Source of the DNA: an uncultured Bacilli bacterium
GTDB lineage: Bacteria; Bacillota_I; Bacilli_A; RF39; UBA660
Direction: 5' to 3'
Length of the DNA stretch: 43,193 bases
Assembly (NCBI GenBank): GCA_947626535.1
Contig: CANQSO010000005.1
Span: 1-43,193, forward strand
Part shown: piece after piece, positions 2,814-20,379 of the stretch
How the letters are laid out: each line of letters opens with the position of its first letter
Numbering within the stretch: position 1 is the first letter of the stretch
The notes under the pieces: generated by a model
Told to the model about the DNA's origin: nothing
The model's database searches: none
What the model saw: the letters and a program-made list of their open reading frames with translations, nothing else
Translations under genes and position numbers: made by a program

Positions 2814-2842
2814 AAATCAGTTTTATACTGATTTTTAATTTT
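2814..2842. terminator. Short hairpin between secA and the metallo-hydrolase gene
   Basis: AAATCAG (2814-2820) pairs with CTGATTT (2828-2834) around a 7-base loop, with T-runs on the plus-strand side. It sits directly beyond the stop codon of the reverse-strand hydrolase gene, so it probably ends that operon and may back up the secA terminator. Confidence 0.5.
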
Positions 2843-4090: not shown

Positions 4091-4644
4091 AATGATTTCA
4101 CCAACCTTTTAACCATTTCTTTATCATTTGCTTTTAAAACATAATCAAATGCACTTTCGTCATAACTGATACTTGCTTTTTCCCTTAAATCAAATGCTTC
4201 TTCTGTTATGTTATCTCTTTTAATTGCTCTTTGCTTTCTAATTTCATATGGGATATCTAAAAGTATTTTTATATCACACATATCAAAGTATTTTGAAATT
4301 GAAAGTAATAACCAATCTAGAATTATAATTTTATCTTTATGAAGATTCAAAAAGTAATCAATTTCTAGTTGCATATATTGCCATGTAATATCGGATAGTT
4401 TATTCATTTCATTTCGTGAATTAAAAACAATTTCACCAAGTTTTTTTCTATCAACTATGTTTTCTTTTATGATAGATTCTCCAAATGAATTTATTAATTC
4501 TTCTTTAACCTCTGGTAGTAATAATACGCTGTGGCCAACTTTATCAATGTCTAAGTGTATTGCTTTATTATTTGTTAATTCAATTATTTGATTTGCTAGG
4601 GTACTTTTACCACTGCCTGATTTACCACAAATCCCTATAATCAT
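4087..4644 (-). CDS. coaE: Dephospho-CoA kinase
   Basis: CoaE phosphorylates the ribose 3'-OH of dephospho-CoA, the last step of CoA synthesis. The 185-residue protein starts with the P-loop GKSGSGKST (residues 7-15) and continues with HLDIDKVGH, matching the family's acceptor-site Asp region, and a lid region RAIKRDNITEEAF. It is the first gene of the reverse-strand operon. An AGAAAGGAGA ribosome site lies just upstream of the ATG at 4644. On its strand TATACT (complement of 4686-4691) is a possible -10 that overlaps the forward LysR promoter, so the two transcripts may compete. Confidence 0.93.
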   Translation of the reverse strand: MIIGICGKSGSGKSTLANQIIELTNNKAIHLDIDKVGHSVLLLPEVKEELINSFGESIIKENIVDRKKLGEIVFNSRNEMNKLSDITWQYMQLEIDYFLNLHKDKIIILDWLLLSISKYFDMCDIKILLDIPYEIRKQRAIKRDNITEEAFDLREKASISYDESAFDYVLKANDKEMVKRLVKSL

Positions 4645-4664
4645 ACTTTTTTTCTCCTTTCTGT

Positions 4665-4693
4665 TTGTATTGTATTACATTATTTAGTATAAT
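4665..4693 (+). promoter_or_regulatory. Promoter of the LysR gene, within the divergent coaE/LysR spacer
   Basis: TTGTAT (4665-4670), a 17-base spacer and a perfect TATAAT (4688-4693) lie upstream of the AGGAGG ribosome site at about 4725 and the ATG at 4736. The 91-base spacer also holds the reverse-strand coaE signals. A LysR regulator usually binds such a divergent spacer. Confidence 0.6.
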
Positions 4694-4735
4694 TAAAATA
4701 TATATTTATTATGTCTGTCATAACAGGAGGTTATT

Positions 4736-5635
4736 ATGAATATTGATTTTGAATTATATAGAATCTTTTATGTAGTAGCAAATCACTCTAATATTACTAA
4801 GGCTAGTGAAGAATTAAATATATCTCAACCTGCAATAAGTAAATCAATTAAAAATCTAGAGGAACAATTAGGTGGTCAATTATTTGTTAGAACTAAACGA
4901 GGTGTGATTCTTACTGAAGAAGGAAAAGAGTTTTATAACTATATAAAACAAGCAATTGAATATATTAATAATGCTGAAAATAAGTTTACTGATCTTATTA
5001 ATCTTGAAACAGGGTGTATAAAAATTGGTATTAGCACAACATTAACAAAAGAATTTTTACTTCCGTATTTAGAAAAATTTCATTCTTTATATCCTAAAAT
5101 AGATGTAAAAATTATAACTAATATCACATCAGAGTTAATATCGAATTTAAAAAATGGATTAATTGATATAGTAATATTAAATTTAAATGATAAAAGTTAT
5201 GTCAATGATTTAGAAATTATTAAATGTAAAAAAATTAGAGATTGTTTCGTAGTAAGTAATAAATATAAGGATTTAATTGGACAAGAAATTTCTTTAAAAG
5301 ATTTAAACAATTATCCTTTAATTTTACAAGCAAAAGGATCTAACACTAGAGATTTTTTAGATAAGTTTTCAAGAGAAAACAAGGTCATTCTTAAACCTAA
5401 TTTTGAATTAACAAGTTATTCATTAGTTGCCGAGTTTTCTAAAATTGGCTTTGGAATTGGATATGTAACTAAGGAATATATTAAAAGTTCAATTGATAAT
5501 AAAGAATTATTTGAGCTAAATATAAAAGAAAAAATTCCTTGTAGATATATTGGCATCGCATTATCAAAAAATCATTTGCCTAATTTTAGTACGAAAAAGT
5601 TAATTGAAATTATTAGAAAGGAAAATGTTAATTAA
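4736..5635 (+). CDS. LysR-family transcriptional regulator
   Basis: The 299-residue protein has the classic LysR layout: an N-terminal winged helix-turn-helix in the first 60 residues (ASEELNISQPAISKSIKNLE, then RTKRGVILTEEGK) and a periplasmic-binding-fold effector domain from about residue 90. Length is standard for the family. It is transcribed divergently from coaE with overlapping promoter elements, so autoregulation or control of coaE is possible. The effector is unknown. The gene sits immediately before the first orphan secA-tail site, so it may belong to the accessory island and not to the core chromosome. Confidence 0.93.
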   Translation: MNIDFELYRIFYVVANHSNITKASEELNISQPAISKSIKNLEEQLGGQLFVRTKRGVILTEEGKEFYNYIKQAIEYINNAENKFTDLINLETGCIKIGISTTLTKEFLLPYLEKFHSLYPKIDVKIITNITSELISNLKNGLIDIVILNLNDKSYVNDLEIIKCKKIRDCFVVSNKYKDLIGQEISLKDLNNYPLILQAKGSNTRDFLDKFSRENKVILKPNFELTSYSLVAEFSKIGFGIGYVTKEYIKSSIDNKELFELNIKEKIPCRYIGIALSKNHLPNFSTKKLIEIIRKENVN

Positions 5636-5734: not shown

Positions 5735-5901
5735 ATAATTGTAAGCGAATGATAACAATGTTCTCAATTTGTTCCCATCTTATGAAATATTTATAGTAAA
5801 CATAGTACTATAAATACCATAAATACTATTTGTTCTCAGACCTAAAATTCCTTGAAATACCGATAATAACGGTAATACTATATATACTCAAAAGTAGGGA
5901 G
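5735..5901 (+). repeat. Right-end arm region of an integrated element (copy 1)
   Basis: This AT-rich stretch precedes the orphan secA tail at 5902. It shares with the regions before the other two tails the 19-mer ACTATAAATACCATAAATA (here 5807-5825) and the string AATACTATATATACT. The order of the shared blocks differs from that at 15370 and 18062, so this copy is more diverged. I infer integrase arm-type sites. Confidence 0.55.
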
Positions 5902-5945
5902 CATGTGGTAGCGGCAAAAAGTACAAGAACTGTTGCGGAAAATGA
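5902..5945 (+). other. Orphan secA 3' tail 1: attachment-site core
   Basis: In frame it reads ACGSGKKYKNCCGK-stop, the end of SecA, with a stop codon two codons upstream, so it is not a gene. It differs from native secA only at seven third-codon positions. Selection to encode the tail is expected if an inserting element must restore the secA reading frame. The bases that follow (ATGATTATGAAATAAGGGA) are repeated after the tail at 15531, marking a shared element left end. Confidence 0.7.
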
Positions 5946-6029
5946 TTATGAAATAAGGGAAAAATTGATTTGTTAAGAAATAAAATGTGGTAGCGAAAAT
6001 AAATTTTGTCCACAAAACATAAAAAATAA

Positions 6030-6174: not shown

Positions 6175-7461
6175 ATGAGTAGAATCAATATAAAAAAACG
6201 TGGTAAAGTATACCAATATTGCTTTGAAGCAGCAAAGGTAAATGGAAAAAGAAAGCAAATTACAAAATCAGGATTTAAAACAAAAAATGCAGCTTATGTT
6301 GCAGGAGAAAAAGCATATGAGGAATATATAAATGGTGGATGTGTTACGCAAGCATATATGTCATATGGTGATTATTTAGATTACTGGCTAGAACACTATT
6401 GTAAAGAATTTTTAGCTCATCGAACGGTTGAAGAATACTCTGTTATAGCCAATAAATATTTAAAACCAGGATTAGGGCATTTTAGATTAAATGCAATCAC
6501 AGGTCATCAATTAAATATGTATTTGATTGAAATATGTAAAAGATATAACTATTCTTATGGTTATTTTAGAAATTTTGTAAAAACTATAAAATGTTCTTTT
6601 AGGGTGGCAACAGATATTTTTGGATTCATTCGATATAATCCTTCTCTTACAATACAATTACCACCATTAAATAATGTAAAAAAAAAATTAATTAAACATG
6701 TATACACACAAGAAGAAATAGATCTTATTTTAAATCGCTTTAAAAATAATTCCACTTTTACATGCTTGTTTATAACAGCTTGCTATACTGGAATGAGACC
6801 TAGTGAGATTTGTGCATTAACTTGGAATGATATTGATTTTGAAAAAAGACTTATTAAGGTAAGACACAATGTATATAGCAAGATAAAAGACAACAAAGGA
6901 AGATGGTTTTTAGGTTCGACTAAAACAGTAAATGGAATTAGAGATATTTATATATCTGATACACTTTATATAGCATTAAAGAATTTTAAAAATAGGCAAG
7001 ATAAATTAAAAAAAGAGTTTGGAAAAAATTATCATTATTATCATTTAGAAGAAGTAAAAAATAGATATGGAAAAATTAATGAATATAGAATTGTTGAAAT
7101 TACTAGAAAAAATAAATTATTAAAAACTTTTGATTTAGTATTTACTAAAGATAATGGTATTTATAATGGTACGGATATTACAAGATATCCATATAAAGTT
7201 GTTCATGGTGAATTAGGTATAAATAATTGTAGATTTTATGATTTAAGGGGAAGTTTTGCAACAAGAACTTTACGAAGTGGTGTTGAAATTAGAGATGTGG
7301 CTGATATATTAGGCCATAGTAAAATAGAAACTACTGAGAATTATTACATATCAAGTTCTAAAGAAACAATGAAAAATGCTAGTAAAATGTTTGAACAAAC
7401 AGTGAAGTCAGAAACTATAGATGAAATAATTAAATATTTGCCTATAGTTTATAAACAATGA
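6175..7461 (+). CDS. Tyrosine recombinase/integrase of element A
   Basis: The 428-residue phage-type integrase is expected to recombine an element attachment site with the chromosome. The N-terminal 55 residues form an arm-binding type domain (YQYCFEAAKVNGKRKQITK), residues about 62-170 a core-binding helical domain, and the rest the catalytic domain: Arg208 in TGMRPSE, Arg358, His381 in DILGHS and the nucleophile Tyr390 in TTENYY. The usual HxxR histidine is Tyr355 (FYDLRG), the same as in the second integrase in this window, so this is a subfamily trait and not damage. An AAGGAG site precedes the ATG. It lies just right of the first orphan secA tail, as expected for an integrase beside its own att site. 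Confidence 0.95.
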   Translation: MSRINIKKRGKVYQYCFEAAKVNGKRKQITKSGFKTKNAAYVAGEKAYEEYINGGCVTQAYMSYGDYLDYWLEHYCKEFLAHRTVEEYSVIANKYLKPGLGHFRLNAITGHQLNMYLIEICKRYNYSYGYFRNFVKTIKCSFRVATDIFGFIRYNPSLTIQLPPLNNVKKKLIKHVYTQEEIDLILNRFKNNSTFTCLFITACYTGMRPSEICALTWNDIDFEKRLIKVRHNVYSKIKDNKGRWFLGSTKTVNGIRDIYISDTLYIALKNFKNRQDKLKKEFGKNYHYYHLEEVKNRYGKINEYRIVEITRKNKLLKTFDLVFTKDNGIYNGTDITRYPYKVVHGELGINNCRFYDLRGSFATRTLRSGVEIRDVADILGHSKIETTENYYISSSKETMKNASKMFEQTVKSETIDEIIKYLPIVYKQ

Positions 7462-7473
7462 GGAATATCTTTA

Positions 7474-7671
7474 ATGAATGAGGTTATCGTGGCTACCGAT
7501 TTAACTAATTCCAAAATAGATAGACAGAATATATTAAATAATAATTTTGCTGTAAGTGAAATAGAAAAAGCTTGTAGTATAAAAGTTATTTTACAAATAT
7601 GTTTGAAGTATTTACTTTTAACGATAACAGTGCTAATATATAACTTAAGTTTTACAAGGGGATGGAGATGA
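7474..7671 (+). CDS. Small unrecognised ORF after the integrase
   Basis: The 65-codon ORF has a GAGGA site about 7 bases before its ATG and lies 12 bases after the integrase stop. The first 35 residues are polar (IDRQNILNNNFAVSEIEK); the rest is hydrophobic with one possible membrane segment near residues 43-57. The abrupt change suggests either a tiny membrane protein or a truncated gene start read into unrelated sequence. I do not recognise a family. Confidence 0.35.
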   Translation: MNEVIVATDLTNSKIDRQNILNNNFAVSEIEKACSIKVILQICLKYLLLTITVLIYNLSFTRGWR

Positions 7672-7678
7672 CATTTAT

Positions 7679-8962
7679 ATGGTTAATTATTCTAAAGTAT
7701 CGGCCGAAGGTTGTGAACAATTAGAATGTTTAGCAGAAGCATATAATTTATTTGCTCTTTTTGGCACTCCAGCTAATGTTATTTTTGCTGACTAATTTAT
7801 TATTAATGTTAACAAATTTAAAGATATTTTTACGCAATATTTTTCGCGTGAAAATATCTTTTTTTCATGTAAATGTAACAAAAGTTTTGCTCTTTTGAAG
7901 TATGCTTCAGAGCAAAATTGTGGTATAGAAGTAGCAAGTAATTATGAATTAAGTGATGCACTTAAGTTTACAAAAAAAATAATAGCTTCTGGTCCTGCAA
8001 AGGATTATGCTTATTTGAATAATTCAATAGATAACGATGTACTGATATCTGTTGATGATGTTGAAGAATTAAAACAAATTAAGGAAATTAACAAGCCAGC
8101 TCGGATTCTTTTAAGAATTTCCGATTTATTAGGAAAAGTTAGCAGATTTGGAATAAACTTAAATCAAATTGATTTTTGTTTAGACATTATTTCTAATAGT
8201 TTAATACAACTTGAAGGATTTTCATTTCATATAAATAACTACTCTTTAGATGATAGAATTAATGCAATTAATGAAGTAGTAGAATTAACTGAATCTAAAA
8301 AAATAAATATTAGTTTTATTGATATAGGCGGAGGAATTCCTACAAATTATTGTACTAAATATGATTACTATAATTTTTTAAAACAAAATAATAAAGAAAT
8401 GTATTTTAAGGAACACTTTATTACCGATTATTATCCTTATTATAGTGAAATTGCTGATGAAAAAGCATTAGATTATATTTTGAAAAACGTTTATAAAAAA
8501 TTAAACGAAAAAGGAATTGAGATTATTATAGAACCAGGTAGGAGCCTACTTAAGAATGTTGGAGTTAGTATATATGAAGTTCAATATATGAAGAGATTAT
8601 TTAATGGTGAAAAAATTATTGTTACAAATGGAAATATCAATTGTTTATCAGAACAATGGTTTAATAGCGATTATTTAATAGAGCCTAAATTAATTTCTAA
8701 AAATAATAATTCTAATAATAGTATTTTAGCAAGTGTTGCAGGTAATTTATGTTTAGAACAAGACATGATTACATGGAGAAAGATTAAATTTGATACAATT
8801 CCAGAAAAGGGCGATTTATTAATTTATTATAATACAGCTGGTTATCAAATGGATTCAAATGAAAGTGAATTTCATAAAATTCCGTTAGTCAAAAAGTATA
8901 TTGTTAAAAAAAATGACAATGGATATGTTATAGAGGAGGATAAGAAGTTTGATTGTAAATAA
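7679..8962 (+). pseudogene. PLP-dependent decarboxylase-like gene (alanine-racemase fold), interrupted by in-frame TAA
   Basis: Read through the TAA at 7793-7795, the frame from ATG 7679 gives about 427 residues of the fold-III PLP family that includes diaminopimelate and ornithine decarboxylases and Y4yA-type enzymes. Visible features are an N-terminal ALFGTPANVIF strand, the PLP-lysine segment SCKCNKS (Lys65), IEVASNYEL, IASGPAKD, DIGGGIP, the phosphate-binding EPGRSLL and a C-terminal AGNLCLEQD. The TAA falls between residues 38 and 40. Restart downstream (for example TTG 7895) would lose Lys65 and so should be inactive. The family-like sequence continues directly on both sides of the TAA in the same frame, so a single-base nonsense change, a sequencing error or stop read-through are all possible. 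It is the first gene of the biosynthetic cluster and overlaps the next by 14 bases. Confidence 0.75.
7820..7861 (+). terminator. 16-bp stem-loop inside the decarboxylase frame, 25 bases after its in-frame stop
   Basis: AAAGATATTTTTACGC (7820-7835) pairs over all 16 positions with GCGTGAAAATATCTTT (7846-7861), with one U-G wobble and a 10-base loop. It runs into a T-tract, the form of an intrinsic terminator. It lies within sequence that looks coding, just after the TAA at 7793. It could attenuate transcription of the cluster, promote stop read-through, or be coincidental. Confidence 0.5.
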
Positions 8963-9938
8963 AGTCACAGATTTAATTGGGAATACACCATTGTTTGAAA
9001 TTAAGATGAAAAACAACGATTGGAAAATTTTTCTTAAACTTGAAAAATTTAATCCAGGTGGAAGTATGAAAGACCGAATGGCATTAAATATGATTGAACA
9101 AGCAGAAAAAGATGGAAGATTAAAACCGGGAGGAACAATAATAGAGTCATCAAGTGGGAACACTGCTATCGGATTAGCAATTGCATCAGCAATAAAAGGA
9201 TATAAATTTATAGCAGTTGTAGATCATCACGCCTCAAAAGAAAAAATTGATATGATTAAAGCATATGGTGGAGAAATTGTAGTTGTTGGTGATGAATATA
9301 AAGCAAATGAAGTTGCAGTAGTTGAAAGGGAAAGAACAGCCAAGAGAATGTCTGAGGAAATTGAAAATTCTTTTTTCCCTAATCAAGCAGATAATTTTGA
9401 TAATCGTTCAGCATATACTAATACCCTTGCAAAAGAATTAATTAAAGAATTAGGGACTATTGATTCTTTTTATGCTGCAATTGGAACAGGTGGTTCATCT
9501 TGTGGTACAGCAATTGGATTAAAAGAAAATAATAAAAATACAATTATTAATGTTGTTGAGCCGGTGGGTTCTATATTATTTGGTGGTAAAGGACAACCTT
9601 ACTTTCAATCAGGAACTGGTAATCCTATAGATGCGTCAATACCAAAAATAATTGATTATGAAATTATAGATAATAATTTTTATGCTAAGGATGATGAGGC
9701 ATTTAATACTTGTAGATATTTTGCAAAAAAATATGGTTTATTAATTGGTGGTTCAGCAGGAGGAGTTATTTATAAAGCACTAGAAGATATAAATAGTAAA
9801 ACAGGTTCTGGTAATGCAGTTATCTTATTATGTGATGGTGGAGAAAAATACTTAAATAATGTCTTTAATGATGAATGGATGATAAATAATAACTTAATTA
9901 ATGATGAAGTTGCTGAAAAATTGGAACAATGGATTTAG
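8949..9938 (+). CDS. Cysteine-synthase-family PLP enzyme (CysK/SbnA-like)
   Basis: This 329-residue fold-II PLP enzyme belongs to the beta-substitution family of O-acetylserine sulfhydrylase and SbnA, which replaces the beta group of an activated serine. Seen are TDLIGNTPLF at the N terminus, the PLP lysine Lys41 in GGSMKDRMA, the substrate loop SSSGNTAIGLA and the glycine-rich phosphate cup GTGGSSCGTA. The start is TTG 8949 with a GAGGAGG site 8-9 bases upstream; it overlaps the preceding gene by 14 bases, indicating coupling. Next to two amino-acid ligases and a KamA-like enzyme, a role in making an unusual amino acid such as 2,3-diaminopropionate or a relative fits better than housekeeping cysteine synthesis, but no SbnB-type dehydrogenase is present. 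Confidence 0.88.
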   Translation: MIVNKVTDLIGNTPLFEIKMKNNDWKIFLKLEKFNPGGSMKDRMALNMIEQAEKDGRLKPGGTIIESSSGNTAIGLAIASAIKGYKFIAVVDHHASKEKIDMIKAYGGEIVVVGDEYKANEVAVVERERTAKRMSEEIENSFFPNQADNFDNRSAYTNTLAKELIKELGTIDSFYAAIGTGGSSCGTAIGLKENNKNTIINVVEPVGSILFGGKGQPYFQSGTGNPIDASIPKIIDYEIIDNNFYAKDDEAFNTCRYFAKKYGLLIGGSAGGVIYKALEDINSKTGSGNAVILLCDGGEKYLNNVFNDEWMINNNLINDEVAEKLEQWI

Positions 9939-9949
9939 GAGAGATAACT

Positions 9950-11083
9950 ATGAGATTTGAAAAATGGGAAGAGGAAGCATTTAATTATCTTACATCTTTA
10001 TATGAAAACTTTTTTAAAGAGTTGTCAGAAAAATGTATGGACTGTTTTAGAATAGATTCTAGAGAACTATTCTCTGAAAATGTTAAAGAATTAACTGACG
10101 AGCAGGAAAAAAAGATAAAAGATTATTGGGAAAAATATACAAAAGATTTTGATATTGCATATCACAAATATTATATAGATAGAACTGGAAAATTTGATGA
10201 AAGATTTATTCCAGATGATTTATTTGTTGGATATATTGATGGCTATTTAAATAATAGAGCAATTGAACCAGGGGTTGCAGATAAAAACTATTTTGATTTA
10301 TATTTAAAAGGTTTTAATTTGCCCAAGACATATGTTCATTTGATAAATGGTGTTTTTGAAGATAAAGACTATAACATTATAACCAAAGAAAAAGTGATTG
10401 ATATTTTATTATTAGCTAGTAATATTACGATAAAACCAAGTATGGCATCATATGGTGGGAAAGGTGTTATATTTCTTAATAATCCAACAAAAAGAGATTT
10501 AATAGATTTTTTGGATAATCTAGAAGATGAAAACTTGATTTTTCAAGAAACAGTGAATCAATCTAAAGAAACTGCTAAATTACATCCAGATTCACTTAAT
10601 ACAATCAGGATTATGACATTAATTCTAGATGGAGAGGTAAAAGTCTTACCTTGGTGTGCATTCAGAATGGGAATTGGAAAATCTAAAGTTGATAATGCGA
10701 GTTTTGGTGGGATTTACTGTAAAGTTAACGAAGATGGAACACTTTCAAATTTTGCATATGATGCACTTGGTAAAAGATTTGACAAACATCCAGATGGTGG
10801 AAATTTTGAAAATGTAAAATTTGAATTTATAGATAAGGTTAGAGACTTAGTAAAAGAAGCAGCGCAAAGATTTCCACATTTTAGATTAATTGGATGGGAC
10901 ATTGCAATTACAAAAGATAATGAACCAATTATTATTGAAGCAAATTTAACAATGAGTGGAATGGATGTTATTGAAACGATATGTGGTCCATTGTTTGGTG
11001 AGTATACTGAAAAGGTGTTAGAGGAAGTATTCTTAAAAAAGCATAAAAAGAAAACATCGATGGATATATCACAATATGTATAG
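9950..11083 (+). CDS. ATP-grasp protein (sugar-transfer-associated ATP-grasp type)
   Basis: The 377-residue protein has ATP-grasp character: IKPSMASYGGKGVIF as the glycine-rich ATP loop, NTIRIMTLI, an acidic metal site in GWDIAITKD and IIIEANLTMSG. These match the ATPgrasp_ST group, whose members often sit in glycan or natural-product loci. It probably activates a carboxylate with ATP and joins it to an amine. The ATG at 9950 is chosen over the one at 9929 because GGAG at 9938-9941 lies 8 bases before it; this start leaves a short gap after the upstream stop. It is the third gene of the cluster and the first of two ATP-grasp ligases, suggesting two amide bonds in the product. Confidence 0.8.
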   Translation: MRFEKWEEEAFNYLTSLYENFFKELSEKCMDCFRIDSRELFSENVKELTDEQEKKIKDYWEKYTKDFDIAYHKYYIDRTGKFDERFIPDDLFVGYIDGYLNNRAIEPGVADKNYFDLYLKGFNLPKTYVHLINGVFEDKDYNIITKEKVIDILLLASNITIKPSMASYGGKGVIFLNNPTKRDLIDFLDNLEDENLIFQETVNQSKETAKLHPDSLNTIRIMTLILDGEVKVLPWCAFRMGIGKSKVDNASFGGIYCKVNEDGTLSNFAYDALGKRFDKHPDGGNFENVKFEFIDKVRDLVKEAAQRFPHFRLIGWDIAITKDNEPIIIEANLTMSGMDVIETICGPLFGEYTEKVLEEVFLKKHKKKTSMDISQYV

Positions 11084-11098
11084 TTAGGAGAAATAGAT

Positions 11099-12079
11099 AT
11101 GAAAAAAGTAAGAGAAGAAGAATATATATATGCTGGTATTCCTACTTATATGGGTGGGGAATTCATTAGAGAAAAAGAAATAAAAAACTATGATGTAGTA
11201 TTTTTGGGTGTTCCTTGTGATTATGGTGCATCGTATAGGTTAGGTGCAAAATATGCTCCAAGACAATTAAGAGAGTATTCATTTTGGGATAGAATCTATG
11301 GAGAAGAATTATATGATTTAGATCATAATGAATATTTAAAAACTAATGAACTGAAAATAGCAGATTTAGGAGATGTGTACGTTAATCCGACTAATACAGA
11401 AGAAAATCAAAATGCAATAACCGAAAAAGTATATTCTATTACAAAAAATAGTTTTCCTCTTGTATGTGGTGGAGACCATTCTATTACATATGGCAGTTTT
11501 AGAGGCTTTTATAAAGTCATAAAAGAAAAATATCCTGATTATGAAATTGGATTAATACATTTTGATGCACATATGGATGTAGAAGATAAGTATTTAAATA
11601 TGCCGGATATTTGGCATGGTAATGTATTTAGAAAACTGATTGAAGATGGATATTTAAATGGTGAAAATATGTATACAATAGGTCCACGAGGTGTTGTTGG
11701 AAAAGATTGGTTTGATTATGTAAAAGAAAAACATATTAATTTATTTACATCTAACTATACAAAAAAGAATGGAATTTTGAACATTATTAATGAGATAAAA
11801 GAAAGAAATAAAAATAAGAAAATAAAGTTTTATATAACATTTGATATTGATTGTTTAGATGTATCATATATTTTTGGAACAGGTACTCCACAATGTAATG
11901 GCTTAACACCTTATGAATGTGATGAGGCATTAAGAAACTTGCATGATTTAGATATAGCTGGATTTGATATTGTAGAACTTAATCCAAAACTTGATGATTC
12001 TCATACATCATTTGTTATTGCTGAAGAATTACTATATCACTTTTTAGCATTTGGTCTAAATAAGGAGAAGTTAAAATGA
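11099..12079 (+). CDS. Arginase/agmatinase-family ureohydrolase
   Basis: This 326-residue member of the ureohydrolase superfamily uses two manganese ions to hydrolyse guanidino groups to urea and an amine. The metal motifs are complete: GGDHS near residue 124, HFDAHMD near 154 and FDIDCLDVS near 248, followed by the GTGTP loop; the C terminus has VELNPKLDD. AGGAG lies 8 bases before the ATG, and its TGA overlaps the next start (ATGA). Inside a biosynthetic cluster it more likely trims an arginine-derived intermediate than degrades free arginine. Substrate preference among arginine, agmatine and formimidoyl compounds cannot be read from the sequence. Confidence 0.87.
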   Translation: MKKVREEEYIYAGIPTYMGGEFIREKEIKNYDVVFLGVPCDYGASYRLGAKYAPRQLREYSFWDRIYGEELYDLDHNEYLKTNELKIADLGDVYVNPTNTEENQNAITEKVYSITKNSFPLVCGGDHSITYGSFRGFYKVIKEKYPDYEIGLIHFDAHMDVEDKYLNMPDIWHGNVFRKLIEDGYLNGENMYTIGPRGVVGKDWFDYVKEKHINLFTSNYTKKNGILNIINEIKERNKNKKIKFYITFDIDCLDVSYIFGTGTPQCNGLTPYECDEALRNLHDLDIAGFDIVELNPKLDDSHTSFVIAEELLYHFLAFGLNKEKLK

Positions 12080-13048
12080 AAAAAATAGCAATGTTATTTA
12101 ATTTAAATAGACATCAATATGAATATGAAACAGAATTTGATTCTGAATTAACTATTGAAAGTATATATAATGTTTTATCTAAAAAATATGAAGTAAAAAA
12201 AAATTGAAGCCGATAAAGAATTTAAATGGATAGATAAGTTAAATCAATATCAGCCTAATCTGGTCTTTAATATTTGTGAAGGATATAATGGTCCTGCTAG
12301 AGAATCTGTATATGGAGCAATATTAGAACAATTTAAATATAATTATTCAGGTCCAGACAGCACGAATTTGTTGATGTGCCATAATAAATTTTTAGTAAAA
12401 AATCTTTTAAAAGATTGTATAGATTGTCCAAAAGGGTATAGTGTTTGTGAAAAAAATGATATTGATTTATTGAATGATATTCAATTTCCAGTAATTGTCA
12501 AATTAAATTCTGAAGGTTCAAGTATGGGAATGGATGAAAAATCAATAGTAAATTCATATGATGAATTAAAAAAACAAATATTATCTTTACTTGAGAAATA
12601 TGATAGAAATGTTTTAGTAGAAGAATATATAGAAGGCCAAGATTTTAGCATGATTTATGTTGAGGGGATTGGTGCATTAGGACCATGTATAGTTAATTGT
12701 GATTCTGAATTTTATGATTATGAAATGAAAACTATTAAGGATGATACAGTTGATATACAAACAGCAAATGGCGAATTTAAATCTTTAAAAAATATTGTTT
12801 TGACTATTGCAAAAAAATTAGATATTAAAGGATATGCAAAAATAGACTTTAGAGAAAAAGATGATAAGTATTATTTGATAGAAGTTAATTCTCAAGTAAG
12901 TTTTCATCCTACTGGCGAATTTATTACATGTGCAAAGACAGGTGGATATTCGTTTGATGATATCATCAATTATATTGTGGAAAAAGCATTGGAAACTAGT
13001 GCCAAAAAAAATTCAATAGGATATAAGGTGATTGATAATGATAGATGA
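12076..13048 (+). pseudogene. D-Ala-D-Ala-ligase-like ATP-grasp gene, frameshifted at an A9 tract
   Basis: From ATG 12076 the frame runs about 42 residues and then meets a run of nine A's (12195-12203). With eight A's the frame would continue through LVFNICEGYNG and GPARESVYGAILEQF into the long frame ending at 13048, giving about 323 residues, the usual size of D-alanine-D-alanine ligase relatives. The rest shows VKLNSEGSSMG, the lid strand VLVEEYIEGQDF, KIDFREKD and the metal-binding IEVNSQVSFHPTGEF. The change could be a true mutation, a phase-variable slip tract, programmed slippage or an assembly error. Its start overlaps the arginase stop by four bases, with AAGGAG upstream. The expected role is ATP-dependent ligation of two amino acids in the cluster's product. 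Confidence 0.8.
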
Positions 13049-14114
13049 AAAAATAATTGACAAAGAATTGCAAGAAAAATATCGACAATTAGTTGAAATG
13101 GATAATTTGCTACCAATTAAAATATCTGACTTTTATATGAAAAAAATAATTGAAGAAATAGATACAATTGGTATGGGTGGACCATTATATAGATCAGTAA
13201 TTCCTATAAAAGATAAAATAGATTTAAAAACCAGTGTTGAAACTAGAGATTATGTTGAAGAAGATAAACATAATCCAGTTGAAAATTGCGATTACATAAT
13301 TCAAAAATATGAAAATCGTTTAGTTTTTATTATAACGGATGTTTGTTTTGCACATTGCCAATATTGTTTTAGAACTTATAATTTGTCTAAATTTCAACAA
13401 AGTAATTTGAAAGAAACAATAAAAAATAAAATATTGGTTTTGAAAAAGTATCTACAATCGCATTCAAATATAAAGGAAGTAATATTTTCTGGTGGAGATC
13501 CGTTAAGTATAGGCTATGAAAATATGAAATTTGCGTTAGATGAATTACAACAATGGAATATTAGAATACATACAAGAGCAATTGTATATGAACCATCTAT
13601 TTTTACAGAAAAAATGATAAATTTATTCAATAAACATAATATTAGACTTGTATTTCATATTAATCATCCTTATGAAATAGATGAAGTAGTTGAAGAAAAG
13701 ATAAATGAAATTAGAAAAGCTGGAATAAGAATGTATTCTCAATTTCCACTATTAAGAGGTATTAATGATAATTCAAAAGTTTTAATAAAATTATTAATAA
13801 AAATGGACGAATTAAATATTAGACCATTATCTATTTTTATTCCTGATCCAATATCATATGGTGCTGTAAATAGAATTTCAGTAAGTAGAATAGAAAAAAT
13901 AATGGATGAAGTAAATTGGAATGCTCCTTCTTGGGTTAATTCAGTTAGGTTTGTAATGGATACTACAATTGGAAAAGTGAGAAGAGAGAATATAATAAAA
14001 AGAGAAGGCAAATGTATTACATTTTCTAGAGATGGCAAAACTGTAGAATACTATGATTTAGATGATGGAATTGATGTTCCTTCACCAATTGATAAATTAT
14101 TGTGGAAAAACTAA
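13038..14114 (+). CDS. KamA-family radical SAM aminomutase
   Basis: The 358-residue protein belongs to the lysine 2,3-aminomutase family, which uses an iron-sulfur cluster, SAM and PLP to move an alpha-amino group to the beta carbon. The radical SAM motif CFAHCQYC gives Cys103, Cys107 and Cys110, followed by FSGGDPLS. I could not assign the PLP lysine with certainty. The ATG at 13038 is preferred over TTG 13032 because AAGG is better spaced; it overlaps the upstream gene by 11 bases. It is shorter than full lysine 2,3-aminomutases and could instead be an EpmB-like enzyme acting on a protein. As the last gene of the cluster, making a beta-amino acid building block is the more natural role. Confidence 0.85.
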   Translation: MIDEKIIDKELQEKYRQLVEMDNLLPIKISDFYMKKIIEEIDTIGMGGPLYRSVIPIKDKIDLKTSVETRDYVEEDKHNPVENCDYIIQKYENRLVFIITDVCFAHCQYCFRTYNLSKFQQSNLKETIKNKILVLKKYLQSHSNIKEVIFSGGDPLSIGYENMKFALDELQQWNIRIHTRAIVYEPSIFTEKMINLFNKHNIRLVFHINHPYEIDEVVEEKINEIRKAGIRMYSQFPLLRGINDNSKVLIKLLIKMDELNIRPLSIFIPDPISYGAVNRISVSRIEKIMDEVNWNAPSWVNSVRFVMDTTIGKVRRENIIKREGKCITFSRDGKTVEYYDLDDGIDVPSPIDKLLWKN

Positions 14115-14193
14115 TGAATTGAATATATATATTTTTTTAAAAGTGATACAATATAATTAAGTAATTTCATTTTACATGAAAGGAATGATTAAA

Positions 14194-15297
14194 ATGCCAC
14201 ATTATAATGCGTATGATAGTTTTAAAACTAAAAAAAGTATAGAAAAAAAACAAAGAGCTAAAGAAAGAGCTTTTGGAAAGAAAACTGAAGCAGTAGATAA
14301 CTTTATTATTGATTCTTGTGATGAATATGGAGTTGTTATTGAAGTTAGATATGATGATGCATATATACTTTATAATGGAGAAGTAGTATTAGCAAAACTA
14401 AGAAATGATATAAACTTAGTTTGTAATCAAGTTGTTTTTCCTGGAGATAAAGTAGATATAGAAAAAGCAAATGATACATATATTATCAATCACTTATTAA
14501 ATAGAACTTCAATATTATCAAGAACTAAAAAAGATAGTACGAGATTAAATGATGTTGGATCAACAAAGAATATTGCTTCAAATGTTGATTTGGCTGTAAT
14601 TGTGGTTGCTGCTAAAGAACCACCATTACATCCAAAATTTATTGATAGATATCTAATGATTCTTCAAAACAGTAATATTCCAGCTATAATTTGTTTAAAC
14701 AAGTGTGATTTAAAGACTGATGAAGATGAAGAAATCCTTTCAACGTATAGAGATTTAGGAATAGATGTAATTGAAACATCCACTTATAGTAATATTGGCA
14801 TTAATGAATTAAAGGCACGATTAATTAATAAACAAGCTATATTTGTTGGAAATAGTGGTGTTGGAAAGTCTTCACTTACAAATGCTATTATGGGAGATGA
14901 TGAAATAAAAACAAGCCATGTTAGTGATAAAAGTAAACGTGGAAGACATACAACAACAACTTCAAAATACTATGTATGGGAAGATAATTCTTCCATCATT
15001 GATACACCTGGTATAAGAAGTTTAGATGTTTCAACTTTTAATCCAATTGAAATACAAGATTACTTTCCTGAATTTGAAAATTGGAGAGATAAATGTAAGT
15101 ATAATGATTGTCTTCACTTTAACGAGCCTTATGATTCTTGTATAATTAAACAAGGAGTGGCTAGCGGATTTATTAGTCCAGAACGCTATGAAAGTTATTT
15201 AAGAATTATGGGAGATGTACTTGGTGAAAAAAATTATGAAAGTATATTGAATGAAGTTGCTCCAGATTTCAAAAAAAAAATTAATTTTAAAAAATAA
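14194..15297 (+). CDS. rsgA: Ribosome small-subunit-dependent GTPase RsgA
   Basis: RsgA is a circularly permuted GTPase that helps late 30S ribosome maturation. The 367-residue protein has an N-terminal OB-like domain, the permuted order with NKCD (G4) before GNSGVGKSS (G1, from about residue 219) and DTPGIRS (G3), and a C-terminal zinc site CKYNDCLHF...C. The ATG at 14194 has AAAGGA 9 bases upstream and is preferred over the ATG at 14176. A TATAAT at 14152-14157 suggests its own promoter, although no clear -35 is seen. It lies inside element A, between the biosynthetic genes and the second orphan secA tail, which is unusual for a housekeeping gene and raises the possibility of a self-protection role. 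Confidence 0.93.
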   Translation: MPHYNAYDSFKTKKSIEKKQRAKERAFGKKTEAVDNFIIDSCDEYGVVIEVRYDDAYILYNGEVVLAKLRNDINLVCNQVVFPGDKVDIEKANDTYIINHLLNRTSILSRTKKDSTRLNDVGSTKNIASNVDLAVIVVAAKEPPLHPKFIDRYLMILQNSNIPAIICLNKCDLKTDEDEEILSTYRDLGIDVIETSTYSNIGINELKARLINKQAIFVGNSGVGKSSLTNAIMGDDEIKTSHVSDKSKRGRHTTTTSKYYVWEDNSSIIDTPGIRSLDVSTFNPIEIQDYFPEFENWRDKCKYNDCLHFNEPYDSCIIKQGVASGFISPERYESYLRIMGDVLGEKNYESILNEVAPDFKKKINFKK

Positions 15298-15369: not shown

Positions 15370-15530
15370 TAGTAAACGAATGTTGTAAATTTCCTCATTA
15401 TTTCCTCATTTTGTAAATAACGATAATACGGATAATACTATATATACTGATGTTACATTGACTGTATTTTCAAGAAATAACAATAATACTATAAATACCA
15501 TAAATAAGGATAATATGAGATTGCACTGAG
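15370..15530 (+). repeat. Right-end arm region of element A (copy 2)
   Basis: This 160-base block is about nine-tenths identical to 18062-18221. It begins AGTAAACGAATGTTGTAAAT and includes ACTATAAATACCATAAATA at 15488-15506, exactly 43 bases before the secA-tail core, the same distance as in copy 3. The TTTCCTCA motif occurs twice here. I read it as the integrase arm-site region at the element's right end. The rest of 15298-15369 is AT-rich with no gene. Confidence 0.65.
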
Positions 15531-15574
15531 CATGTGGAAGTGGTAAAAAGTATAAAAATTGTTGTGGAAAATGA
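15531..15574 (+). other. Orphan secA 3' tail 2: attachment-site core
   Basis: It encodes CGSGKKYKNCCGK-stop and matches native secA at 39 of 40 bases (2602-2641), the one change being silent. A TGA stop lies one codon before it, so it is not expressed as a gene. The following bases repeat those after tail 1 (ATGATTATGAAATAAGGGA). It forms the right border of element A and the left border of element B. Confidence 0.72.
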
Positions 15575-15639
15575 TTATGAAATAAGGGATGTCGCAATAT
15601 GATAAATGGGTGACATCTTTTAAATTTAAAGAGGTATGA

Positions 15640-15988
15640 ATGACTAATAATGATAATTCTAATATAATTATTTATCAATCTGATGATAGAGAAACAAAAC
15701 TGTTTGATTATCTCAACAACAAATGGCAATGCTTTTTAAAACTTCAAGAACGAATATTATTGAACACATAAACAATATATATTTAGAAGGAGAATTGGAT
15801 AAAATTTCAACATGTCAGAATTTCCGACAAGTTTAAAAAGAAGAAATAGAGAGGTATGACGAGAAATTCCATTTTATAATTTAGATATGATAATATCTTT
15901 AGGATATTTTATTAAATCTAAAATAGCTACTAATTTTAGAAATTGGGCTACTTAAAGTTTGAAAGAATATATTCCAAAAAAGCATTGA
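15640..15988 (+). pseudogene. RhuM-family virulence/DNA-binding protein, decayed
   Basis: Fragments in changing frames match the RhuM plan: an N-terminal SNIIIYQSDDRETK from ATG 15640, then in another frame MLFKTSRTNIIEHINNIY with EGELDKISTCQNFRQ, a stop, and then in a third frame FYNLDMIISLGYFIKSK and NFRNWAT. At least two frameshifts and two stops show it is dead. RhuM-type genes are frequent passengers of mobile elements. It fills most of the apparently empty stretch at the left end of element B. Confidence 0.7.
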
Positions 15989-16023
15989 AAAATGCAAAAT
16001 AATTACTTTTGACATTATGCATG

Positions 16024-16052
16024 TTGTAATTTTTTTACATTTTGTATATAAT
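16024..16052 (+). promoter_or_regulatory. Promoter of the ATPase/TOPRIM-like pair
   Basis: TTGTAA (16024-16029), a 17-base spacer and TATAAT (16047-16052) end just before the GGAGAG ribosome site at 16059, implying a very short leader. A separate TTGACA at 16009-16014 lies nearby but has no good -10 at the right distance. Confidence 0.6.
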
Positions 16053-16071
16053 AATGTTGGAGAGTGATATT

Positions 16072-17226
16072 ATGTTAAAAAAAATAAAATTGGATAATTA
16101 TACAACATTTATTAAACCTACTGAGATAGATTTTTCTGCTACTAACTATAAGTTTTTAGAAAATGAGAATGTTGGAAGTAACAAAATACTTAAAGGTTGT
16201 CTATTTGTTGGCGAAAATGCTTCTGGTAAAACAAAAATATTAAAAAGCATAACTTTATTGCTTGATTTATTATTTGGAAATAATGAAATGTATTTTATGT
16301 CTAATAAAAGTTTTTATACAACTAAACCAACATATAAACTTGAATATACATTTATAGAAGATAATAAAGAAATAGTATACTCAATTGAACTAGACAATAA
16401 TAAAATTATTTCAGAAAAGTTATTTTTTGAGCATCAAATGATTTTAGAAAGATTAGGGAATACCGCAAAATTTAATTTAAATGAAGAAAAAACATTTAGT
16501 GATATTTCTGATAAACTATTGTTTTTGCGTAGAATATATTTTGATACTAATTTTTATGACAACAAAATATTAAATAAGTGGTTTTTATATATGAAAAAAT
16601 CAGTATATATTAATTGCTATTATAGAACAGTTATTAATTATTTAGGAAGTAGTTTATTGGTTCATGAATATTTAAATAATAATACAGTAGATGATATAAA
16701 TAAATTTTTAGAAAAAATTGATTATAAGCAAAAAATAGAATATGGTACAGAAATAATTGATTCAAATAAAAAAAACTTTGTTAAGTTAAATGACAATAAA
16801 AAATTTATTTCATTTAATAAGAAAGGTACAGATATTTATATCCCTGAAATGTTTGAATCAACAGGTAATATAACTTTTATGGAATTACTACCATCATTTT
16901 TACATGCTATTAATAATGAATGTATGATAATTATTGATGAGTTTAGTAGTGGTTTTCATAATGAATTAGAAGAATGCATAATAAAATATTTTTTTCATTA
17001 TTCAAAAAATTCACAACTATTTTTTACTTCACATTCTACGAATATTTTAAATAATACATTGATTAGACCAGATCAAATATATTCAGTTTCTTTTGATTCA
17101 AAAAAAGGTTCAGTTTTAAAAAGATTTTCTGAAGAAATGCCAAGAGAATCCCAAAATACAGAAAAAATGTATTTAAATGGAGTGTTTAATGGAATGCCTA
17201 GATACAACAAAATCTTTAAAGATTAA
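16072..17226 (+). CDS. AAA15/OLD-like ATPase, first gene of a probable defence pair
   Basis: The 384-residue ABC/SMC-like ATPase has Walker A GENASGKT at residues 47-54 and Walker B MIIIDEFSSGFH followed by FFTSHSTNIL, with a short middle region in place of a long coiled coil. This is the AAA15 architecture found in OLD, RloA, PARIS AriA and related phage-defence ATPases. The ATG at 16072 has GGAGAG 7 bases upstream; the ATG further upstream at 16042 has no such site and lies in the promoter. The downstream gene overlaps it by 38 bases, so the two are co-translated. I infer a sensor ATPase that holds or releases the partner effector on infection; I cannot assign a named system. Confidence 0.82.
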   Translation: MLKKIKLDNYTTFIKPTEIDFSATNYKFLENENVGSNKILKGCLFVGENASGKTKILKSITLLLDLLFGNNEMYFMSNKSFYTTKPTYKLEYTFIEDNKEIVYSIELDNNKIISEKLFFEHQMILERLGNTAKFNLNEEKTFSDISDKLLFLRRIYFDTNFYDNKILNKWFLYMKKSVYINCYYRTVINYLGSSLLVHEYLNNNTVDDINKFLEKIDYKQKIEYGTEIIDSNKKNFVKLNDNKKFISFNKKGTDIYIPEMFESTGNITFMELLPSFLHAINNECMIIIDEFSSGFHNELEECIIKYFFHYSKNSQLFFTSHSTNILNNTLIRPDQIYSVSFDSKKGSVLKRFSEEMPRESQNTEKMYLNGVFNGMPRYNKIFKD

Positions 17227-17974
17227 TTTTAAAAGAAATATTGGTTCAGTATTAATTGTTGTAGAAGGTGCTTCATATGAATTTGATTTATTAAAGCAAA
17301 TTTTTAGAAAAATTCTTCATTACAATTATATTGAAAAAAGCAGAAATCAACAAAATTTTAAAAACTATGATGAATTTGTAATGAAAGGGAACGAAAACTC
17401 TCATGTGATAGTAATAAATTCAAAAAATTCTAATTTATCTTCTATAAAAAAAGATGAAAATTATCTTAATGAAATTTATAAACAATTATATTTAGAATAT
17501 GGAATAGATGTAAAAAATATTAATATATATTTTATTTGGGATAGAGATAATGAATCTAATCCATCAGATGTAACAGAAGACTTATTAAGTCGATTAGGAA
17601 ATTCAGTTGAGAATAAAAATGGGGAAATGAATGGATTATTATTGCTAAGTTATCCATGTATAGAAGCTTTTACTATTTCTAATTTTGATAAACAGACAAC
17701 AAGTTTAAAAGAAAAAGATTTAAAAAAGTATGTTAAAGATAACGATTATAATATAAATAAAATAAATAGATATACACTATTGAATGCTACAGTTATGATG
17801 AACAAAAGTTTATTAGAATGTGGAATTACAGAATATGATTTAGATGATTTTTCAAAAACATCTTTAAAAGTTTTTAGTAAACAAGAATTATTTTTGCGTA
17901 GCAAAAAATATTATAATTTATTGTCATTAATTTCAATAATGCTTTTAGATTTAAATATTATAACAATAAGATAA
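17189..17974 (+). CDS. TOPRIM-like partner of the AAA15 ATPase (putative nuclease effector)
   Basis: The 261-residue protein has a TOPRIM-like pattern: VLIVVEGASYEF near residue 21 (Glu26), then IYFIWDRDNESN with two acidic residues and YPCIEAF. This resembles the RloB/DUF4435-type partners encoded with AAA15 ATPases, but I cannot place it in one family. The ATG at 17189 has TGGAG 6 bases upstream; it overlaps the ATPase gene by 38 bases. No signal peptide is seen. A nuclease that cleaves RNA or DNA when its ATPase partner is triggered is the natural inference. It ends about 90 bases before the right-end repeats of element B. Confidence 0.65.
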   Translation: MECLDTTKSLKINFKRNIGSVLIVVEGASYEFDLLKQIFRKILHYNYIEKSRNQQNFKNYDEFVMKGNENSHVIVINSKNSNLSSIKKDENYLNEIYKQLYLEYGIDVKNINIYFIWDRDNESNPSDVTEDLLSRLGNSVENKNGEMNGLLLLSYPCIEAFTISNFDKQTTSLKEKDLKKYVKDNDYNINKINRYTLLNATVMMNKSLLECGITEYDLDDFSKTSLKVFSKQELFLRSKKYYNLLSLISIMLLDLNIITIR

Positions 17975-18015
17975 ATATTTTATAGTATAAAAATAATAAG
18001 CATTGTAGTAGCAAT

Positions 18016-18042
18016 TATATTTTTGCCAATGGTAAAAATATA
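18016..18042 (+). terminator. Stem-loop after the ATPase/TOPRIM pair
   Basis: TATATTTTTGCC (18016-18027) pairs with GGTAAAAATATA (18031-18042), with one wobble and a 3-base loop, 42 bases after the stop codon. There is no strong T-run, so it may be a weak terminator or an mRNA-stabilising hairpin. Nothing else genic is seen in 17975-18061. Confidence 0.45.
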
Positions 18043-18061
18043 AAATATATAGTATAATAAA

Positions 18062-18221
18062 CAAGTAAACGAATGTTGTAAATTTCCTCATTTTGTAAAT
18101 AACGATAATACAGATAATACTCATAATACTATATATATTGATGTTTTGTTGACCGTATTTTCAAGAAATAACAATAATACTATAAATACCATAAATAAGG
18201 ATAATATGAGATTGCACTGAG
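18062..18221 (+). repeat. Right-end arm region of element B (copy 3)
   Basis: Nearly identical to 15370-15530, it contains AGTAAACGAATGTTGTAAAT, TTTTCAAGAAATAACAATAA and ACTATAAATACCATAAATA (18179-18197), the last again 43 bases before the secA-tail core. It differs mainly by an extra TCATAATAC-like insertion. The close match with copy 2 shows that elements A and B share one integration system. Confidence 0.65.
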
Positions 18222-18268
18222 CATGCGGTTCGGGCAAGAAGTATAAGAACTGTTGCGGGAGAGGCTAG
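18222..18268 (+). other. Orphan secA 3' tail 3: attachment-site core
   Basis: It reads CGSGKKYKNCCGRG-stop in frame, preceded directly by a stop codon. It is the most diverged copy at the DNA level (GC-richer codons such as TCG, GGC, AAG) yet identical in protein up to the last two residues. It probably derives from the secA of a different host species and was carried in by an element. Confidence 0.65.
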
Positions 18269-18357
18269 TAAATAAAGGGTTTTTATTAATTTTATAAAAA
18301 ATTACATTGGTAGCGAAATTTGATTTTGTTTGCATAAGTTTAAAAAAATAGCTAATG

Positions 18358-19398
18358 TATCAGTATCCTTTTGAGGCAGCAAGAGTTAATGGTAAAAGAA
18401 AACAAATTACAAAATCAGGATTTAGGACCAAAAATGCTGCTTTTATTGCAGGGTAAAAAGCTTATGAAGATTATCAAAATGGTGGTTGTAAAGTGGAAGG
18501 CTGTATGTCTTATGGATATTTTAGAAATTTTGTAAAAGTTATAAAATGTTCATTTAGAGTTGCAACAGATATTTTTGGATTTATAAATTATAATCCTTCA
18601 CTTACTATCAAACTCCCTTATATCGAATTATTAAAAAAACAAAGAAGGCACGTTTACACAAATGAGGAAATAGATCTTATATTAACTAGATTTATGAATA
18701 ATGAACCTTTTACTTGCCTATTTATTACTGTTTGTTACACAGGTATGCGACCAAGTGAAGCATGTGCATTAACGTGGAATGATGTCAATTTAGAAAAAAG
18801 GATAATTACTATAAAGCATAATGTATATCCAAAAGTGAAAGATGAAAAAGGAAAATGGTTTATTGGTACACCCAAAACAGATACGAGTAATAGAGAAATT
18901 TATATATGTGATACGCTTTTTCAAGCTTTACATAACTTTAAGTCAAATCAAGAAAAACATAAAAAGTATTATAATAGTAAATATCATTATTATCATTTAG
19001 AAGAAGTTAAAAATAAATTTGGAAAGGTAGTTGAACATAGATTAATTGAATCAAAAAGAAAAAATCGAAATCAAGAAATATTTGACTTGGTATTTGTTAA
19101 TAAAGATGGAAGTTATTCTGGTACAGATATAACGAAATATCCTTATAAAGTAATTCGCAATGAATTAGGAATTATTAATTGCCGTTTCTATGATTTAAGA
19201 GGCAGTTATGCTACTAAAAGTTTAAGAAATGGAGCAGATCTTAGAGATGTAGCTGATACATTAGGTCATAACAATATTGAAACGACCGAAAATTATTATG
19301 TCACAAGTTCTTTTGCTTCAAGGAAAGAAGTAAGCGAAAAATTTGAACAAACAATTTCTTCAAAAGTTATTGAACAAATTATAAATAAAAAGGGCTAA
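18358..19398 (+). pseudogene. Decayed tyrosine recombinase of element C
   Basis: This is a close relative of the integrase at 6175. The N-terminal piece YQYPFEAARVNGKRKQITK starts without a start codon and meets an in-frame TAA at 18454-18456, where the other copy has Glu (GEKAYE). Residues 66-129 of the intact enzyme, most of the core-binding domain, are missing. The join falls exactly between two SYG-coding repeats, pointing to slippage between short direct repeats. The catalytic domain (TGMRPSE, FYDLRGSYAT, DTLGHN, TTENYY) remains open from about 18493. It should not support integration by itself. Confidence 0.85.
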
Positions 19399-19404
19399 AA
19401 TTTA

Positions 19405-19433
19405 TTGATTAAATATACCACTTGCGGTATAAT
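19405..19433 (+). promoter_or_regulatory. Promoter of the Fic gene with embedded inverted repeat
   Basis: TTGATT (19405-19410), a 17-base spacer and TATAAT (19428-19433) precede the GAGGTGA ribosome site. The palindrome ATACC-N6-GGTAT (19415-19430) overlaps the spacer and the -10, a good position for an operator bound by the Fic protein's own N-terminal helix-turn-helix. Confidence 0.6.
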
Positions 19434-19452
19434 TGCTTTGAGAGGTGAAATC

Positions 19453-20379
19453 ATGGAATTTATGACTACAAAAGAAGCTGTTCTAAAATGGAATATTAGT
19501 GAAAGAAGAATAAGAAAATTATTAAAAGAGGGAAGAATAGAAGGCGCAGTCAAAAATGGAAATAGTTGGAATATCCCAATTGATGCACTAAAACCAGTTG
19601 ATAAAAGGGTTATAAAACCTGATCATAATGATTTTATTATTAATTTACCAAATAACTTTTTTGATGAAGTAGACAATTTGAAAAAAGAACTTGATAATAA
19701 AAGACCTATACCAAAAGATACACTTAGAACTCTACAAGAAAAAATTAATTTGGAATGGACTTATAATAGTAATGGTATAGAAGGAAATACTTTGACGCTT
19801 AGAGAAACTCAAGTAGTTTTAGAAGGAATTACTGTTGGTGGAAAATCAATAAAAGAACACTTAGAAGCTATAAATCACGAACGCGCAATTTTGTTTTTAC
19901 AGACTATAGTAAAGGATGATGACCCGATTACTGAGTGGAACATTAAAAATATACACACTCTTATATTAAAGAAAATTGATGATGAAAATGCTGGAAGATA
20001 TAGAAGTGAAAATGTAACTATAAAAGGAGCAACTCATATTCTACCAGACTTTGTAAAAGTTCCCGAGTTAATGGAAAAATTAATTTTAAATTATAAAATT
20101 TGGAATAAATATCATCCAATAATTCGAGCCACATTATTGCATGGTGAACTTGTTAAAATTCATCCTTTTGTTGATGGAAATGGAAGAACATCAAGATTAA
20201 TTATGAATTTAGATTTAATGAAACATGGATTTAATCCTGTAATTATAAAAAAAGAAAATAGACTACAATACTATGAAGCCTTAGATAAAGCCCATACAAT
20301 GCAAGATTATACTGATTTTATTAAATTGATTACTAAATTAGAAATTGAAATGTTAAAATATTATTTAAAATTGATTTAG
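19453..20379 (+). CDS. Fic-domain protein with N-terminal helix-turn-helix
   Basis: Fic enzymes transfer AMP or related groups onto target proteins. The 308-residue protein starts with a short excisionase/MerR-like HTH (TTKEAVLKWNISERRIRKLL). It then has the inhibitory-helix motif SNGIEG (Ser106 to Gly111; Glu110 would block ATP) and the active-site motif HPFVDGNGRT from His237. The inhibitory motif lies before the Fic core, the class II arrangement, so activity should be autoinhibited. ATG 19453 follows GAGGTGA; the TTG at 19405 lies in the promoter and is rejected. It lies directly after the decayed integrase and is probably cargo of element C. Its targets are unknown. Confidence 0.92.
   Translation: MEFMTTKEAVLKWNISERRIRKLLKEGRIEGAVKNGNSWNIPIDALKPVDKRVIKPDHNDFIINLPNNFFDEVDNLKKELDNKRPIPKDTLRTLQEKINLEWTYNSNGIEGNTLTLRETQVVLEGITVGGKSIKEHLEAINHERAILFLQTIVKDDDPITEWNIKNIHTLILKKIDDENAGRYRSENVTIKGATHILPDFVKVPELMEKLILNYKIWNKYHPIIRATLLHGELVKIHPFVDGNGRTSRLIMNLDLMKHGFNPVIIKKENRLQYYEALDKAHTMQDYTDFIKLITKLEIEMLKYYLKLI

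Follow-up and report, generated by a model that had tools for sequence, protein, structure and literature searches.

An accessory RsgA GTPase linked to a mobile biosynthetic cluster in uncultured Bacilli, and its possible role in self-protection

The window analysed here is the whole of a 43,193 nt stretch (contig CANQSO010000005.1, GenBank assembly GCA_947626535.1) from an uncultured Bacilli bacterium of the UBA660 family. It contains an element that begins and ends with a copy of the 3' end of secA and carries, in order, a tyrosine integrase gene, six biosynthetic genes and an rsgA gene, here called rsgA2 (Table 1). The two direct repeats are 89 % identical over 62 bp. The genus mate G002, whose SecA is 98 % identical to that encoded in the window, has a secA end to which the right repeat is 95 % identical over 59 bp. 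A close copy of the integrase (89–97 %) lies directly 3' of secA in both G002 and G386, the latter from another genus. An integrase and flanking direct repeats of its target, the secA 3' end, are the features expected of a mobile element, and both are present. The position of rsgA2 between the biosynthetic genes and the right end, first proposed in a sequence-only reading of this DNA, is borne out by the reading frame, the profile matches, the integrase and the repeats.

Table 1. Features of the integrase element in the window
Feature	Position	Strand	Basis or remark
Left secA-3'-end repeat, putative att	5899..5960	+	First 40 bp 82.5 % identical to secA 2602-2641
Tyrosine integrase	6175..7461	+	Sequence; place beside secA in G002 and G386
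LysA/Orn-DAP-Arg decarboxylase-like PLP enzyme	7682..8962	+	Profile matches; in-frame stop at 7793-7795
SbnA/cystathionine beta-synthase/cysteine synthase-like PLP enzyme	8949..9938	+	TIGR03945, 253 bits, below the cut-off of 350
ATP-grasp protein (PF14397)	9929..11083	+	136.7 bits
Agmatinase/arginase-family ureohydrolase	11099..12079	+	PF00491, 238.8 bits
Ddl-like ATP-grasp ligase	12076..13048	+	Profiles; full-length copies in relatives
KAM, KamA/lysine-2,3-aminomutase-like radical SAM enzyme	13032..14114	+	TIGR00238, 157.6 bits, below the cut-off of 199.2
Spacer 5' of rsgA2, with a 26 bp block around GTGATACAATATAATTAAGTAATTT	14118..14193	+	Alignment to G055
rsgA2, accessory RsgA paralogue, 367 aa	14194..15297	+	Family profiles, motifs, alignment of relatives, tree
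Right secA-3'-end repeat, putative att, just 3' of rsgA2	15528..15589	+	97.5 % identical over 40 bp to secA 2602-2641

Unlike the arrangement in G002 and G386, where the integrase adjoins secA, four genes separate secA from the left repeat in the window (2835-5635; metallo-beta-lactamase-fold, coaD-like, coaE-like and LysR-type). The integrase island at secA in G002 has a different cargo. A 99.6 % identical copy of the ORF at 17177-17974 is found on the G002 contig, near another repeat, and it therefore seems that cargo passes between secA islands. Within the window, this ORF is part of a second cargo module between secA-3'-end repeats (15528-18258); it has no Pfam match and is the partner of an AAA_21 ATPase gene (16042-17226), and the pair has the look of a defence system. 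Past a third repeat at 18219, the region 18342-20379 holds the remnant of a related second integrase (79 % DNA identity at the start) and a Fic-type gene.

The rsgA2 frame is open throughout. An in-frame ATG upstream, at position 14176, is an alternative start, but the position equivalent to 14194 (MPHYNAYDSF...) is where the proteins of nearly all relatives begin. The protein consists of a K/R-rich N-terminal extension, an OB region, a circularly permuted GTPase, with G4 (NKCD) ahead of G1 (GNSGVGKS) and G3 (DTPG), and a C-terminal Cys/His zinc motif, CKYNDCLHFNEPYDSC. Matches to TIGR00157, 'ribosome small subunit-dependent GTPase A' (210.6 bits, cut-off 100), and to Pfam RsgA_GTPase, PF03193 (175.6 bits, cut-off 30), are above the respective cut-offs, and a profile built from the RsgA2 clade retrieves Escherichia coli RsgA in 30S complexes (2ykr and 7boi, E about 1e-51). 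The core residues of the GTPase and zinc motifs are invariant across 16 relatives. The structure model is of low confidence (pLDDT 68, pTM 0.51). Judged by these sequence features, 14194-15297 encodes a genuine RsgA with the GTPase and zinc motifs all intact. RsgA2 thus shares with the RsgA/YjeQ/YloQ/CpgA family (TIGR00157) the permuted GTPase, the OB region, the zinc motif and an above-cut-off match, and differs from it in being a second copy that forms a separate clade, lies on a mobile cluster and has a conserved N-terminal extension missing from the RsgA of its host.

Two kinds of RsgA can be distinguished in the host's family. Almost all of 119 relatives have an ordinary rsgA, the product of which is 31–39 % identical to the window RsgA2 over the GTPase part, whereas close relatives of RsgA2 (60–79 % identity) were found in only a handful of them. 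Across 386 genomes of the family, the RsgA2 type is present in 16. The ordinary RsgA proteins examined in the family are about 273–284 aa long and lack the N-terminal extension, and the gene in G013 sits in a prpC-prkC-rsgA-rpe-like row (read from the sequences). RsgA2 and all other RsgA fall into separate clades in the tree (98 % SH-aLRT). The sequence-only reading had asked whether a second rsgA exists, and an ordinary copy does accompany RsgA2 in all eight of the other sampled cluster hosts, with about 30–37 % identity between the two types; none was seen in the window's own genome (G000), the assembly of which is 67.9 % complete. The window gene is a dedicated second RsgA on a mobile cluster and not the housekeeping copy. 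No RsgA2 was found outside the family in a 395-genome sample of the class, where the matches were to family members only. Phage and plasmid records yielded only distant RsgA, all <60 % identical, and a viral origin was rejected as viral contigs were without RsgA2.

In the window, two of the six biosynthetic genes are broken, namely the decarboxylase gene and the Ddl-like gene, which has a frameshift in an A-run at about 12195-12203 with its downstream part forming the ORF 12368-13048, while rsgA2 is intact. As the complete copies of both genes in relatives are intact, the producer in the window may be inactive or the assembly in error; a metagenome assembly error could account for both lesions. 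No conserved exporter was found among the cluster copies compared. The cluster in G396 (L062) includes an extra, second ATP-grasp gene (6825-7982, reverse strand), which shares 39 % identity with the first, as well as a 161 aa Cys-rich ORF, and the product therefore probably varies among hosts.

Copies of the cluster in other genomes were located using KAM as the anchor. KAM was found in 9 of the 386 family genomes, and all nine also have RsgA2. With 16 RsgA2 genomes among the 386, the chance value for this co-occurrence is 2e-14, which is a guide value only, since it presumes independent genomes and those of one family are not. More weight attaches to the recurrence of the pairing across several genera and despite insertions. 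A KAM-alignment scan of 84,980 species added two clusters readable past KAM and one (L084) that ends inside KAM. RsgA2 follows KAM in all 11 readable copies, either immediately or with one or two genes inserted in between (radical SAM, small acetyltransferase-like, or a 168 aa ORF). The sequence-only reading had also asked whether related clusters always carry rsgA, and the readable copies all do. Going by the record titles, the hosts are uncultured Bacilli of gut, rumen and faecal samples. An impression formed from the first 12 genomes, in which RsgA2 occurred without the aminomutase and appeared to have no link to the cluster, was overturned at 386 genomes.

The linkage of RsgA2 to the cluster is also seen in the tree, where the cluster-associated RsgA2 fall into one clade (97 % SH-aLRT) that includes two cluster-free members. 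Between G000 and G386, KAM and RsgA2 are 97–98 % identical and SecA is 64 % identical, from which it follows that the cluster moved together with rsgA2, between genera. The dN/dS of rsgA2 is 0.05–0.13, similar to that of the cluster enzymes, and the gene is under purifying selection. The arrangement that would have spoken against a special role, a sole rsgA in the same place in relatives lacking the cluster, was not encountered; cluster-free relatives are usually without RsgA2, and the secA island of G002 carries other genes.

Not all RsgA2 are accompanied by the cluster. Of the 16 genomes with RsgA2, seven have no KAM, and absence of the cluster consequently does not entail absence of RsgA2. 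Two of the seven show signs of cluster loss. The cluster-free RsgA2 of G272 and G440 are nested in the cluster clade (97 %). The DNA just 5' of rsgA2 in G272 aligns in register with the KAM end and the KAM–rsgA spacer (99 bp, 76 %, E 8e-12). In G440, the corresponding DNA matches the acetyltransferase-like gene at its end (61 bp, E 4e-4). These matches are short, yet collinear up to the rsgA2 start, and the simplest reading of them suggests that the cluster was lost and rsgA2 retained, though the G272 contig begins only 293 bp upstream and the cause there may lie in the assembly. The more distant cluster-free RsgA2 branch outside the cluster clade, and RsgA2 therefore probably predates joining the cluster.

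Cluster-free RsgA2 (60–79 % identical) occupy varied places. The rsgA2 of G226 is flanked on one side by an APH(3')-like gene, which scores 197 bits against a cut-off of 205, and on the other by an ABC-F ribosomal-protection-like gene, which scores 428 bits against a cut-off of 380; a similar ABC-F gene (435 bits) is found 3 kb upstream of rsgA2 in G055. These resistance-type neighbours are few (two genomes) and may be there by chance. The G226 row (L072 6927-13530) is near-contiguous and comprises NUDIX, APH(3')-like, rsgA2, ABC-F ribosomal-protection-like and arginase-family genes, after which come two radical-SAM-like ORFs; it may be a further biosynthetic cluster that includes resistance genes. 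In G037 (L034 3330-4975), a methionyl-tRNA synthetase-like gene split over two frames is located just 3' of the cluster-free rsgA2.

The spacer in front of rsgA2 bears on whether the gene is expressed separately. The 26 bp block in the window spacer recurs 5' of the cluster-free rsgA2 in G055 (92 %, alignment score 28, compared with a best score of 21 among 300 shuffles). A scan of the rsgA2 upstream region for consensus promoters gave matches at chance level in this AT-rich DNA. On the strength of the block shared with G055, it is possible that rsgA2 has its own promoter. In G396 and G456, the gap between the preceding cluster gene and rsgA2 is about 15 bp, which is operon-like, while in the other clusters a spacer of 60–80 bp gives rsgA2 the appearance of a separate unit.

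The role we consider most likely for RsgA2, though with only about even confidence, is that it shields the 30S subunit of the producer from the cluster's own product. The enzymes encoded (a decarboxylase, an SbnA-like enzyme, an aminomutase, two ATP-grasp ligases and a ureohydrolase) would probably make a small basic amine or a beta-amino-acid peptide, and this product would act on the 30S subunit. RsgA takes part when the decoding centre of the 30S subunit folds (PMC9032327). RsgA2 would bind the 30S subunit near the decoding region and keep that region working or return it to function. It would do so by sitting in the drug site, by clearing it or, should the product block ordinary RsgA, by substituting for that protein. 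Self-protection is consistent with the retention of a dedicated RsgA beside a cluster apparently geared to making a basic amine or beta-amino-acid compound. The suggestion of a self-protection gene, made from the sequence alone, thus gains a second, ordinary rsgA and constant linkage to the cluster, while action of the product on the ribosome and protection by RsgA2 are still predictions, held with no more than middling confidence. Several points weigh against self-protection. The product may not be an antibiotic, a conserved exporter is missing, RsgA2 is older than its association with the cluster, and RsgA is a known assembly GTPase. As the last gene in the row, and maybe with its own promoter, rsgA2 could also be a passenger.

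The passenger reading, in which RsgA2 is a general accessory factor for 30S assembly or stress (cold, drugs or nutrient stress) that was captured as useful cargo and has no specific link to the product, appears unlikely but deserves weight. It is favoured by the cluster-free RsgA2 in G055, G226, G037, G011, G030, G016 and G013, by the 26 bp upstream block common to the window and G055, by the NUDIX, HD_4 and methyltransferase genes that are other neighbours of RsgA2, and by persistence of RsgA2 after apparent loss of the cluster. That all 11 readable copies retain RsgA2 at a constant end of the cluster, across genera and insertions, is hard to reconcile with an unrelated passenger, and the grouping of the cluster-associated RsgA2 in one clade, its two cluster-free members included, also argues against it.

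RsgA2 might instead serve the pathway or repair a metabolite, for example as a CpgA-like phosphatase acting on a toxic phosphorylated by-product. Bacillus subtilis CpgA (RsgA) acts on 4-phosphoerythronate, and this moonlighting activity is conserved among Gram-positive orthologues (PMC12445079); the short gap in front of rsgA2 in G396 and G456 would also suit such a role. It is nonetheless improbable, as the pathway enzymes indicate no need for repair, the longer spacer elsewhere looks like that of a separate unit, and cluster-free RsgA2 are instead found beside genes of the type that confer resistance to ribosome-targeting drugs. That the window gene is the housekeeping rsgA of its genome displaced into the element, a reading that can point to the lack of another rsgA in G000, was rejected as highly improbable, because that assembly is incomplete, an ordinary rsgA coexists in the other cluster hosts and is present in nearly all relatives, and the two types form separate clades.

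Self-protection by RsgA2 can be set beside known ribosome-protection factors, which include ABC-F proteins and TetM-type GTPases. By analogy with these, RsgA2 would be a nucleotide-binding ribosome factor serving as a resistance determinant, and its cluster-free copies have ABC-F genes as neighbours in two genomes, but RsgA is a 30S assembly GTPase and belongs to a different family. Self-resistance genes are sought by ARTS and Psi-footprinting using duplication of a core gene, location in the cluster and distinct phylogeny (PMC9290621). All three are found for RsgA2, with the resistance function itself predicted from sequence. In the berninamycin producer covered in the same study, rsgA is only listed as duplicated and is not in the cluster, in contrast to rsgA2, which is inside the cluster in every readable copy. 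An incomplete literature search found no report of RsgA as a self-resistance factor.

More broadly, and tentatively, we propose that RsgA paralogues are an unrecognised class of ribosome-protection factor, namely dedicated 30S GTPases directed against compounds that act at the decoding region, in producers as well as in bystanders that kept or acquired them. If this is true, the assembly GTPase RsgA would join the known ribosome-protection proteins, RsgA paralogues would provide a genomic marker for clusters with 30S-targeting products, and an undescribed family of such products would be indicated in uncultured gut and rumen Bacilli.
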